A DNA stretch of 64,000 nucleotides from Sphingomonas sp. CL5.1 (GTDB lineage Bacteria > Pseudomonadota > Alphaproteobacteria > Sphingomonadales > Sphingomonadaceae). Under the pieces are notes generated by a model. That model had not been told where the DNA came from. It saw only the letters and a list, made by a program, of their open reading frames with translations, and ran no database searches. Both the position numbers and the translations under genes were made by a program. Within the stretch, counting starts at the first letter, position 1, and every line of letters begins with the position of its first letter. Where the stretch lies: positions 3,775,001 through 3,839,000 of the forward strand of contig NZ_CP050137.1 in assembly GCF_013344685.1 (NCBI RefSeq), read 5' to 3'. This document shows, piece after piece, positions 12,646 through 21,705 of the stretch.

Positions 12646-14307
12646 CTATGGTCGCGAGAGCCGACGTTCCGTCCGCAAGTCCCGCGCTTCCAGCTCCGCC
12701 TCCATGACGCGGCGCATCTCGAACTTCTGCGCCTTGCCGGTGACGGTCATCGCGAACGCCTCGACGATGCGGATGTAGCGCGGCACCTTGTAGTGCGCGA
12801 TGCGGCCCTTGCAGTGCGCCAGCACCTCCTCGGCGGTCAGCGCCGCATCGGGGCGCGGGATGATCCAGGCGCAGACCTCCTCGCCATAGGTCTCGTCCGC
12901 CACGCCGAACACCTGCGCGTCGGCGACCGCATCGTGGCCGAGCAGGAACTCCTCGATCTCGCGCGGGTAGATGTTCTCGCCGCCGCGGATGATCATGTCC
13001 TTGATGCGGCCGGTGATGCGGACATAGCCGCGCTCGTCCATCGTCGCGAGGTCGCCGGAATGCATCCAGCCGTCGGCATCAATCGCCTCGGCGGTCTTTT
13101 CGGGGTCGTCCCAATAGCCGCGCATTACCGCATAGCCGCGCGAGCAATATTCACCCTGCTCGCCATAAGGCAGCGTCGCGCCGTCGGGGCCGACGATCTT
13201 CGCCTGCGCATGGGGATGCACGCGGCCGACCGAGCCGACCCGCTCCTCGATCGGATCGTCGGTGGCGGTCTGGGTGGTGAGCGGGCTGGTCTCGGTCATG
13301 CCGTAGCCGATCGTCACCTCGCGCATGTTGAGACGCTCCATCACCTCGCGCATCGTGGCGAGCGGACACGGCGAGCCGGCAAGGATGCCGGTGCGCAGCG
13401 AGGATGTGTCGGTGACCGCCAGAATGGGGTGGTTGAGGATGGTGATGAACATCGTCGGCACGCCGTAGAGCGCGGTGCAGCGTTCCGCCGCCACGGCCTC
13501 CAGCACGCGGACGGGTTCGAAGCTTTCCGCCGGATAGATCAACGCCGCGCCGCTCGTCACCGCCGCGAGATTGCCCAGCACCATGCCGAAGCAATGATAA
13601 AGCGGCACCGGCACGCAGATGCGGTCCGCCGGGGTGAGGTGCAGGGTGCGAGCGGTGAAATAACCGTTGTTGAGGATGTTGCGATGGGTGAGCGTCGCGC
13701 CTTTGGGCAGGCCGGTGGTGCCGCTGGTGAACTGGATGTTGATAGCGTCGTTCGGATCGAGCGCGGCTTCCGCCGCCGCCAGCGCGGGCGCATCGGGCGC
13801 GGCGCGAAGCGCGCTCCACGGCAGGAAGCCGTCGTGCGCTTCATCGCCGAGCGTGACGATCAGCCGCAGCCCCGGCACCTTCGCCGGCCAGATCTCGCGC
13901 AGCATGGCGAGATAGTCGCTGCTCTTGAAGCTCGCCGCCGTCACCAGCATGGCGCAGCCGACCTTGTTCAGCGCATATTCGACCTCCGTCACGCGATAGG
14001 CCGGGTTGATGTTGACGAGGATCGCGCCGATCCGCGCGGTGGCGAACTGGATCACCGCCCATTCGGCGCAATTGGGCGCCCAAATGCCGACCCGGTCGCC
14101 CTTCCCCACGCCGCGCGCCAGCAGGCCCGTGGCGACGCGATCGACCTCCGCGTCGAACGCGCGCCACGTCCAGCGGATCGCCTGATGACGCGAGACGAGC
14201 GCCAGATCGTCGCCCCACCGCGCGGCGGCCTGGCGCAGCGCCGCGCCGATGGTGATCTCCAGCAGCGGCGTATCGGTCGGCCCGCTGGCGATGGAAAGCC
14301 CGTTCAT
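12646..14307 (-). CDS. AMP-dependent acyl-CoA synthetase (FadD/ACSF2-like)
   Basis: This 553-residue adenylate-forming ligase would turn a carboxylic acid into its acyl-CoA with ATP. The motifs are clear: TSGTTGLPKGATLTHRN (P-loop), YGMTETSP, HSGDLATMDERGY, RIKDMIIRGGENIYPREIE (hinge and A8), and the C-terminal catalytic lysine in VTGKAQKFEMR. The start ATG at 14307 overlaps the stop of the aldehyde dehydrogenase gene (ATGA), ruling out a longer upstream start. As the last gene of the amine dehydrogenase operon it probably activates the acid made from the amine-derived aldehyde. It is longer than PaaK-type phenylacetate ligases, so the acid is not predictable. Confidence 0.88.
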   Translation of the reverse strand: MNGLSIASGPTDTPLLEITIGAALRQAAARWGDDLALVSRHQAIRWTWRAFDAEVDRVATGLLARGVGKGDRVGIWAPNCAEWAVIQFATARIGAILVNINPAYRVTEVEYALNKVGCAMLVTAASFKSSDYLAMLREIWPAKVPGLRLIVTLGDEAHDGFLPWSALRAAPDAPALAAAEAALDPNDAINIQFTSGTTGLPKGATLTHRNILNNGYFTARTLHLTPADRICVPVPLYHCFGMVLGNLAAVTSGAALIYPAESFEPVRVLEAVAAERCTALYGVPTMFITILNHPILAVTDTSSLRTGILAGSPCPLATMREVMERLNMREVTIGYGMTETSPLTTQTATDDPIEERVGSVGRVHPHAQAKIVGPDGATLPYGEQGEYCSRGYAVMRGYWDDPEKTAEAIDADGWMHSGDLATMDERGYVRITGRIKDMIIRGGENIYPREIEEFLLGHDAVADAQVFGVADETYGEEVCAWIIPRPDAALTAEEVLAHCKGRIAHYKVPRYIRIVEAFAMTVTGKAQKFEMRRVMEAELEARDLRTERRLSRP

Positions 14308-20527: not shown

Positions 20528-21705
20528 TGCACCGGGGTGATGACGATCGGGTTGAACGCCACCGTCGCCCCCAGCGTCCGCACGAAAGCGCCGCTGGCCG
20601 CGTCATAGACGTCGATCACGCCGTCGGCGCGCGCCAGCACCATATGTGGCTGGTCCTCGCGCGTGACGGCGACGGCCACCGACTGGGCCTTGAGCGGATA
20701 GCGCGCGACACGGGCCTTCTTCGCAGGATCGATCACCCACACTTCGGTGCCGCCGTCCTTGTGGCTGCCTTCCTTGCCGGCCGGGTTCATCAGCACGTAG
20801 AGTCGCCCGGCGGCATCGGCGTTGATCACCTGCCAGCCGCTTGGCCGCCATTCCGGCGCGCCGCCCTCCGCCGTGCCGACGCTGAACGCGCCGGGGATCG
20901 GCCGTGCGATCTCGCCGGAGAGATCGAAGCCCTGCAACATGCCGTGCTGGCTGACGAACCAGGCGGCGCGACCGACCATCGCCGGCGCGCTGAACAGCGG
21001 CTGCCTGTCGATGTCCTGCACAGCCTTGATCGTCCTGGACGTCGCCACCTTGCCCTGATCGTCGAGCGTCGCGCTGAAGATCGAGCCGTCGGCGCACAGG
21101 CTGGAGAAGCCGCGCTGTCCGGTGGGATAGATCTGCGCGCAGCCCGGCAGGTCGATCTCGTTGAGCACCTTGCGTCCGTCCAGATCGACCACGGTGACCG
21201 ACTGCGCCGGGGTGAAATTGGCGACCAGCGCCCATTTCTCGCCATTGGTGAACTGGAACAGGTTTGGATAGGTGACGGAAAGCTGCCGCTTGCCGCCGGG
21301 CAACACGATCTCGCCCTTTGGCTTGAGGTCGGCCATGTCCCAGATGGTGATCGCGTCGGTGCGCTCGCCGCGCGTCAGGCGGGAGTAGAAGGTCTCGCTG
21401 GTCAGTATCTCGCCGCGCCTGGTGGAGACGAGCGAATTGGCGAATTGCGCCGCGCGGACGATCCCTTTCAGCGGCTGATTGGCCGAGGCAGTGTCGACTA
21501 CGACCACCCGCCCGTCGACGATCGCGTTGAAGTGGAAATCGTTGATGAGCACCCAGCTTTTCGGCCATTGCGCCGGCAGCGCCGTGACGCTCGGGATCGC
21601 TTCCTCCGGCAGCGGCTTGGCATAAGACTCGGCCGGCGTGGCGGCGTGAGCAGGCAGCACCGCGAGGCCGAGCGCGGTCGACAACAGCCGGACGAACAAC
21701 CTCAT
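20524..21705 (-). CDS. mauB: TTQ amine dehydrogenase heavy chain (MauB/AauB family)
   Basis: The heavy chain is a seven-bladed beta-propeller that holds the light chain. The 393-residue protein has a Sec signal peptide ending near AHAA. Repeated propeller strands can be seen, for example RVVVVDTASANQ, DAITIWDMADLKPKGEI, SVTVVDLDGRKVLNEIDLPGCAQIYP and TEVWVIDPAKKARV. The block LPGCAQIYPTGQRGFSSLC is strongly reminiscent of the MauB family. The start at 21705 is supported by AGGAGAGGG nine bases upstream; the longer ORF start at 21780 would reach into the operator region. It is the first gene of the operon. Confidence 0.9.
   Translation of the reverse strand: MRLFVRLLSTALGLAVLPAHAATPAESYAKPLPEEAIPSVTALPAQWPKSWVLINDFHFNAIVDGRVVVVDTASANQPLKGIVRAAQFANSLVSTRRGEILTSETFYSRLTRGERTDAITIWDMADLKPKGEIVLPGGKRQLSVTYPNLFQFTNGEKWALVANFTPAQSVTVVDLDGRKVLNEIDLPGCAQIYPTGQRGFSSLCADGSIFSATLDDQGKVATSRTIKAVQDIDRQPLFSAPAMVGRAAWFVSQHGMLQGFDLSGEIARPIPGAFSVGTAEGGAPEWRPSGWQVINADAAGRLYVLMNPAGKEGSHKDGGTEVWVIDPAKKARVARYPLKAQSVAVAVTREDQPHMVLARADGVIDVYDAASGAFVRTLGATVAFNPIVITPVQ

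Follow-up and report, generated by a model that had tools for sequence, protein, structure and literature searches.

The DNA analysed here, called the window below, is a stretch of 64,000 nucleotides from Sphingomonas sp. CL5.1 (contig NZ_CP050137.1, positions 3,775,001 to 3,839,000), and its subject is a cluster of nine genes on the minus strand (12646-21705) built around an amine dehydrogenase of the tryptophan tryptophylquinone (TTQ) type. The genes mauB, mauE, mauD, mauA, two cytochromes c, a TonB-dependent transporter (TBDT, also called the receptor below), an aldehyde dehydrogenase and an acyl-CoA ligase followed one another in this order (Table 1). The junctions were tight: mauB and mauE overlapped by 4 bases, mauE and mauD by 1, mauA and the first cytochrome by 4, the two cytochromes by 4, and the aldehyde dehydrogenase and ligase by 4; a gap of 3 bases lay between mauD and mauA, one of 15 between the second cytochrome and the TBDT, and one of 20 between the TBDT and the aldehyde dehydrogenase. 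These figures use starts chosen by us for MauD (20030) and for the first cytochrome (a GTG at 18891), and they agree with the first-pass annotation, which had counted nine genes on one strand with six tight junctions and gaps of 15 and 20. The divergent TetR gene and the operator and promoter region (21751-21810) had been overlooked in it.

Table 1. Features of the amine dehydrogenase locus in the window
Feature	Coordinates	Strand	Match or motif
TTQ amine dehydrogenase heavy (large) subunit, mauB/aauB-like	20524..21705	-	PF06433 8.1e-41
MauE-like membrane protein	20030..20527	-	PF07291 2.1e-11
MauD-like thiol-disulfide protein	19440..20030	-	thioredoxin-like Pfam families; NCBIfam TIGR02661 172.4 bits, below cut-off 188.6
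TTQ light subunit (mauA)	18888..19436	-	PF02975 5.4e-49
First cytochrome c, mono-haem	18442..18891	-	PF00034 2.5e-07; one CAACH motif
Second small cytochrome c-like protein	17966..18445	-	one CQGCH (CxxCH) motif
TBDT gene, interrupted	15728..17950	-	plug PF07715 3.1e-17, barrel PF00593 1e-43
Aldehyde dehydrogenase	14304..15707	-	PF00171 5.5e-154
AMP-binding acyl-CoA ligase, fatty-acid ligase type	12646..14307	-	PF00501 2e-99
TetR-family regulator, divergent	21839..22516	+	PF00440, PF13977
Sigma-70-like mauB promoter, TTGACA-18 nt-CATGAT, overlapping the operator-like site	21751..21780	-	promoter scan
Paired operator-like site GTC-N4-GAC-N8-GTC-N4-GAC	21776..21803	-	window match

As judged by eye, the mauB product began with a signal-peptide-like N-terminus and the leader of the mauA precursor contained TSRRSLL. 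The MauE-like and MauD-like proteins, by their families, would act in maturation of the light chain. The first cytochrome c is the likely electron acceptor of the dehydrogenase; the second had no Pfam match and clustered together with the first across loci. The aldehyde dehydrogenase, which had no evident signal peptide, is presumed to be cytosolic. The TBDT frame held a single internal stop, an in-frame TGA at 17231-17233, which divided a plug part (17231-17950, 239 amino acids) from a barrel part (15728-17206, 492 amino acids) in the same frame. Plug and barrel were both present, as the first-pass annotation had it, but split rather than joined in one intact protein, and the frame that it had listed as a receptor was not open. 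No internal stops existed in the other eight operon frames.

The neighbours of this light-chain family were followed through a genome-collection scan, in which at least 579 related stretches were confirmed and the best 80 of these loci were kept, so the set is enriched for close relatives. The family was present in 39 of 397 genomes of an even sample of the bacterial family and in 8 of 201 genomes drawn from the genus, and the same-genus genome G545 carried the operon. Clade I was defined by a light chain at least 68% identical to that of the window and comprised 78 distinct loci including the window, 57 of them with full flanks. In these 57 loci mauB and a cytochrome were always found, mauD in 56, the divergent TetR gene in 54, this TBDT in 53 (intact or not), the ligase in 49, mauE in 48 (at a single-query threshold) and the aldehyde dehydrogenase in 45. 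The TBDT lay on the same strand downstream of the cytochromes in 53 of the 57, and mauB, mauD, mauA, cytochrome, TBDT, aldehyde dehydrogenase and ligase were collinear on one strand in 43, window included. The neighbourhood is therefore conserved well outside this strain, the check by which the first-pass annotation had proposed to judge it. Between-locus distances of the TBDT tracked mauB distances, with a rho of 0.46 against a permutation maximum of 0.24, among 37 loci in which every compared gene was unbroken; the corresponding values were 0.76 for mauA, 0.66 for the ligase and 0.43 for the aldehyde dehydrogenase. Six of the 12 full-flank loci lacking the operon aldehyde dehydrogenase had a second one 4-9 kb upstream, which suggests that this step matters.

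The TetR protein is likely the repressor of the operon. Only two promoter-like sites were detected in 12300-22000, the mauB promoter and a divergent one at 21781-21810, which face away from each other in the TetR-mauB gap; their number was no higher than in shuffles, and the argument lies in their position. In the same interval no terminator-like site was found on the minus strand. The paired operator-like site overlapped both promoter-like sites, so that the locus combines a divergent TetR gene with a conserved palindromic site over the promoter, the arrangement of a TetR-repressed operon. At up to one mismatch the paired site gave at least one match in 14 of 100 shuffles of the window, so by itself it carries little weight; a 29-base pattern derived from it matched the host genome once at up to three mismatches. 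Recurrence adds to this. Among 68 TetR-mauB gaps, window included, the site was perfect in 22, present in 30 at up to one mismatch and in 46 at up to two, and the shuffle means were 0.00, 0.05 and 0.70, respectively (mononucleotide shuffles, uncorrected for kinship of the loci). Because of the tight junctions, the presence of only two promoter-like sites, the lack of a minus-strand terminator-like site and the operator-like site, the nine genes likely form one TetR-controlled transcript, as far as sequence patterns can tell; the single operon proposed at first reading stands to that extent. The recurrent site could also serve as a handle for finding the inducer, and hence the substrate.

Breakage of the receptor gene was not confined to this strain. 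The operon TBDT was broken in 16 of 72 distinct copies, each by one stop or frameshift at scattered positions, and 56 copies were without core lesion, lesions being counted only if they fell at 20-97% of the query length. Of the other TBDTs in the loci retrieved, 1 of 58 was broken (Fisher p 0.0004), and of mauB, mauD, mauA, aldehyde dehydrogenase and ligase together 3 of 339 copies (p 1e-10). For the TBDT the count relied on whichever available query was nearest, for the five other genes on one query each from the window; when the TBDT too was counted with one query, the figures were 12/69 against 3/339 (p 7e-8). Expressed per thousand codons, with full-length codon numbers assumed, lesions amounted to 0.30 for the operon TBDT and 0.026 for other TBDTs. 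The short duplicate loci L002-L033 and L165-L171 were left out of these counts, duplicates being recognised by identical sequence. With duplicates and without the core rule, the flagged copies were 18/82 for the TBDT, 0/67 for the aldehyde dehydrogenase, 3/68 for the ligase, 0/94 for mauB and 2/98 for mauA. An earlier control set, under the core rule and with duplicates removed, gave 15/70 operon TBDTs against 2/60 others (p 0.003), with a contig end reached by five of the 70 and seven of the 60. L184 (broken) and L192 (intact), being operon receptors, were then moved from the control to the operon set, which produced the 16/72 and 1/58 above. The 58 controls still include receptors of other TTQ clusters, and moving L160 and L148 too changes p to 0.001. 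Broken copies occurred in isolates as well as in metagenome-assembled genomes, as judged by record titles. Among the best-scoring TBDT paralogues listed, premature stops were rare; a ranking by score favours unbroken genes, and this was not used as support.

The nearest relative found, L173, had a MauA 98% identical to that of the window and a TBDT whose lesion was another one, some 75 bases further upstream than that of the window, while its other eight genes aligned in full. Between the two, the ratio of nonsynonymous to synonymous substitution rates (dN/dS) was 0.17 in the plug and 0.06 in the barrel region of the TBDT, and 0.03-0.21 in the other genes; since both TBDT values lie inside this span, the receptor losses appear to be young. 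With the receptor gene interrupted, the route from uptake to a CoA ester, which had been called complete at first reading, is incomplete in this strain and its receptor is broken in L173 also; its gene set is conserved. Recoding or programmed readthrough of the TGA was considered and rejected, since in relatives each of the three stop codons occurs, their positions are scattered, and some copies carry frameshifts.

Two further copies, from the related loci L101 and L157, shared an identical 10-bp deletion between two GTCG direct repeats near residue 118 of the TBDT. L096 is closer to L101 than L157 is and was intact at this place, so the deletion may have arisen twice, and the repeat is a possible mutational hotspot. 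The deletion of L157 is too early for the core rule and was not counted.

The window enzyme resembles aromatic amine dehydrogenase more than methylamine dehydrogenase, a typing made against PDB sequences only, with no tree. For the heavy chain the best match was the aromatic amine dehydrogenase 2h3x_A (170 bits), and the best methylamine dehydrogenase reached 132 bits. The light chain separated poorly when taken alone, with 154 bits for aromatic amine dehydrogenase against 151 (3c75_L) and 119. It was aligned with the aromatic amine dehydrogenase 2agl_D, and W106 and W157 (precursor numbering), which we take from solved relatives to be the TTQ-forming tryptophans, were invariant in 20 aligned sequences including the window. 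Assignment as a methylamine dehydrogenase was rejected: the NCBIfam equivalog cut-offs were not reached by MauA (164.3 against 196.85 bits), MauB (140.2 against 454.45) or MauD (Table 1). Amicyanin, mauF and mauG were all absent from the nine operon genes, amicyanin and mauF having been sought in the operon but not genome-wide, and the only CCP_MauG matches of the genome fell in one 321-amino-acid frame about 80 kb from the operon. Stops in mauA were noticed in two metagenome-assembled genomes: in L091 codon 116, where the first of the presumed TTQ tryptophans would be encoded, was TAG (10346-10348), and in L073 the stop was at codon 121.

Several clues bear on the substrate. The ligase resembled fatty-acid ligases (801 bits to NCBIfam PRK12583, whose cut-off is 832), and the aldehyde dehydrogenase was intermediate between aminobutyraldehyde and phenylacetaldehyde types. 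Its nearest solved counterpart, PDB entry 8yen, was tried as a guide and gave no clue; in the available text the entry is named in a figure legend. In relatives, genes recurring beside the operon encoded an MbcS-like acyl-CoA synthetase (20 loci; 493.6 bits against a cut-off of 850), two enoyl-CoA hydratases (9 and 7 loci) and a thioesterase (5 loci), duplicates included and with one representative of each cluster annotated. The phenylacetyl-CoA epoxidase family was above cut-off in 8 of the 19 clade-I genomes searched, and two more showed weak matches below it; no match was obtained in the host genome or in three same-genus clade-I relatives, one of them 84% complete. The phenylacetyl-CoA route was accordingly dropped as the general fate of the product. 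Phenethylamine and tyramine, which had been put forward as substrates to be tried, are weakened for this strain by the missing epoxidase and the fatty-acid-type ligase, other ring-cleavage routes being left aside. Our preference goes to primary amines, aliphatic or arylalkyl, the acids of which would enter beta-oxidation as CoA esters. The notion of an amine too large for porins found no support, and the recurrent loss of the receptor speaks mildly against a strict need for it.

Homologues of the TBDT outside the operon were also placed. In L183 (6307-10114) a homologue 49% identical immediately followed a gene for a flavin-containing amine oxidase; its genome (G296) also has a clade-I operon. 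The homologues of L189 and L190 adjoined acyl-CoA catabolic genes. Since homologues adjoin amine oxidase or acyl-CoA catabolic genes, a catabolic rather than an iron role fits the receptor. Four genomes of one genus (L179-L182) carried homologues 52-53% identical, with no light-chain hit in the family sample; in L180, the sole one annotated, FGGY kinase and class-I glutamine amidotransferase genes adjoined the homologue; the four lie in a housekeeping context, which is uninformative.

Further genes around the operon were noticed. An OprB-family porin gene was found at 9327-10676 of the window, about 2 kb past the end of the ligase. Past the TetR gene, an AidB-type acyl-CoA dehydrogenase gene was present at 22526-24202 and also in L173; none turned up in the 20.5 kb of L034. 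A P450-like gene lay upstream of TetR in six loci, including Novosphingobium, most with a glutamine-synthetase-like gene as well, and L046 (2281-6875) additionally had an annotated HpaE-like aldehyde dehydrogenase; these P450-like and glutamine-synthetase-like genes perhaps represent a second amine route.

The reading that we favour, and hold to be moderately probable, is a TetR-controlled amine-utilisation operon with TBDT uptake, periplasmic TTQ oxidation and an acyl-CoA end product, in which the receptor was recently lost here. An intact TBDT would carry a primary amine over the outer membrane, and MauB/MauA, of aromatic amine dehydrogenase type and matured by MauE and MauD, would oxidise it in the periplasm to an aldehyde and ammonia. 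Electrons would pass from the TTQ dehydrogenase to the two cytochromes c. The aldehyde would enter the cytosol and be converted by the aldehyde dehydrogenase and the ligase into an acyl-CoA, which would feed beta-oxidation-type pathways. The loss of the receptor would be recent and independent in this strain and in its nearest relative; without it, uptake might proceed via other receptors or porins, or the operon might be heading to loss of function. What the sequences show directly is the content, order and conservation of the genes, the operator and promoter pattern, and the lesion with its recurrence; substrate class, uptake by the TBDT, electron transfer, direction of flow and control by the TetR protein are deduced.

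A number of observations count against this reading. The receptor gene is broken in 16 of 72 distinct copies, the window's among them, and hence is not an absolute requirement. In L036, L040 and L098 no TBDT stood downstream of the cytochromes: L036 was also without aldehyde dehydrogenase, its ligase standing directly behind the cytochromes, nearer than the search interval of the count, and L040 and L098 were without aldehyde dehydrogenase and ligase. In L103 the TBDT at the operon place belonged to another family. L051 and L072 held both the operon and the upstream aldehyde dehydrogenase, so replacement of one by the other is not clean. The paired site was absent at up to two mismatches from 22 of the 68 gaps, including Sphingopyxis and Sphingosinicella loci, and the gaps of L041 and L074 kept one of the two half-sites. 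The operon has no MauG-type gene. The aldehyde dehydrogenase scored below the cut-offs of the best 25 NCBIfam models listed, the ligase likewise reached none of those listed, and the substrate could not be read from sequence.

Of the other explanations, decay or dormancy of the operon in this strain, with the broken receptor as its first sign, is rather unlikely, and it is the in-frame TGA here, the different lesion in the closest relative found and the scarcity of the light-chain family in the sampled genus that speak for it; the other eight genes, however, read through at the dN/dS given above for the comparison with L173, the operator and promoter pattern is kept, and each broken copy bears a single lesion. 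It is less probable still that the TBDT serves iron, siderophore or haem uptake for making cytochromes and not the amine. Its nearest solved relatives by sequence are siderophore/colicin receptors, the pesticin receptor first (84.5 bits), and haem is needed for the two cytochromes of the operon. Yet there are no siderophore or haem genes among the nine, homologues of the receptor stand in acyl-CoA or amine-oxidase contexts (though L179-L182 lie among housekeeping genes), and in other TTQ clades a TBDT scoring low against this one sits upstream of mauB.

A sequencing or assembly error at the TGA, behind which the receptor would be intact, is compatible with the single affected codon and the fully open frame downstream, and no reads were at hand; we give it a small chance. 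Lesions at scattered positions break this gene in 15 further distinct copies, and errors at random would not single out one gene, an argument which bears on the pattern more than on the TGA of the window. Sequencing error is possible in single cases and does not explain the concentration of lesions in one gene. That the TBDT stands here by chance, TBDT genes being plentiful in this genome (102 barrel matches over 4.57 Mb, one in roughly 45 kb), is highly improbable and was rejected on conservation, given its place in nearly all full-flank loci and its distances, which follow mauB.

Within the amine-utilisation operon that we favour, the repeated loss of the receptor is more surprising than its presence, the operon as such being a variant of the known TTQ amine dehydrogenase cluster. 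We put forward, tentatively and as something short of an even chance, that the operon receptor is under opposing selection, long-term purifying selection for scavenging of scarce amine against repeated recent knock-outs by independent single mutations in about a fifth of lineages. If true, this would fit a receptor that is an entry point for phage or toxin, or one that is costly when amine is plentiful, and it would provide a natural series of receptor knock-outs within otherwise intact catabolic operons. Receptor loss by single lesions, with the rest of the operon mostly intact, offers natural comparisons for the cargo of the receptor and its shedding.

The position of TBDTs was surveyed over 128 distinct light-chain loci, in which L194-L196 were entered as without TBDT on annotation. 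Where the light chain was at least 62% identical to that of the window (n=88), a same-strand TBDT was downstream in 72 loci, upstream in 6 and missing in 4, with 6 truncated; at 50-62% (n=25) it was upstream in 12 and missing in 10, with 3 truncated; below 50% (n=15) it was downstream in 1 and missing in 12, with 2 truncated. The upstream receptors of the 50-62% class scored far below the operon receptors with the same query. In other TTQ clades the TBDT upstream of mauB is a different one, which makes it probable, from this comparison of loci, that TTQ operons acquired receptors on more than one occasion. The first-pass annotation knew of no described TTQ operon with a TonB receptor, and the literature search found none, most subscription journals lying outside its coverage, so that absence from print is unproven; the combination is not unique, since the annotated records of pNL2 and EMRT-2 show another arrangement. 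In the portions available from the Novosphingobium literature, a table of periplasmic proteins includes the amine dehydrogenase Saro_1685, and one receptor appears separately.

Among annotated clusters, aauB-mauE-mauD-aauA on a Pseudomonas aeruginosa plasmid (L196) shared the B-E-D-A order with the window and likewise had two small cytochromes c behind it, but no TBDT, aldehyde dehydrogenase, ligase or divergent TetR was annotated in its 12.5 kb. On plasmid p1 of Cupriavidus pinatubonensis (L194), B-E-D-A, two cytochromes c and an aldehyde dehydrogenase stood in a row as in the window; unlike it, the stretch had a LysR regulator and no annotated TBDT or AMP ligase. The methylamine dehydrogenase mau cluster of Paracoccus kondratievae (L195) had the B-E-D-A core in common with the window and no annotated TBDT in the stretch covered, and it included mauF, amicyanin, mauJ, a cytochrome c peroxidase gene, presumably in the MauG position, and NapG- and NapH-named genes, none of which is among the nine of the window.

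Closer in kind were pNL2 of Novosphingobium aromaticivorans (L191) and Novosphingobium sp. EMRT-2 (L197), with light chains 53% identical to that of the window, in which a TBDT adjoined mauBEDA on the same strand. It lay upstream of mauB, the row was without aldehyde dehydrogenase or ligase, and ring-cleavage genes were nearby; with one and the same query the TBDT of L191 scored far lower than the operon receptors, and that cluster adjoined ring-hydroxylating and catechol ortho-cleavage genes. Thus there are two arrangements, whose receptors belong to different families, that link a TBDT to an amine dehydrogenase with a quinone cofactor. The polyethylene glycol (peg) operon of Sphingopyxis, which our literature search did not retrieve, also joins a TBDT to an aldehyde dehydrogenase and an acyl-CoA ligase, with an alcohol dehydrogenase in place of the TTQ amine dehydrogenase. 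For a sphingomonad, uptake of a catabolic substrate by a TBDT is established in DdvT of Sphingobium sp. SYK-6, which carries a lignin-derived biphenyl compound (PMC6874591). The receptor proposed here would be alike in serving a catabolic substrate and different in its cargo, the available excerpts of that paper mentioning no TTQ enzyme. With this operon, amine catabolism would join the sphingomonad pathways that seemingly begin with active uptake through the outer membrane.

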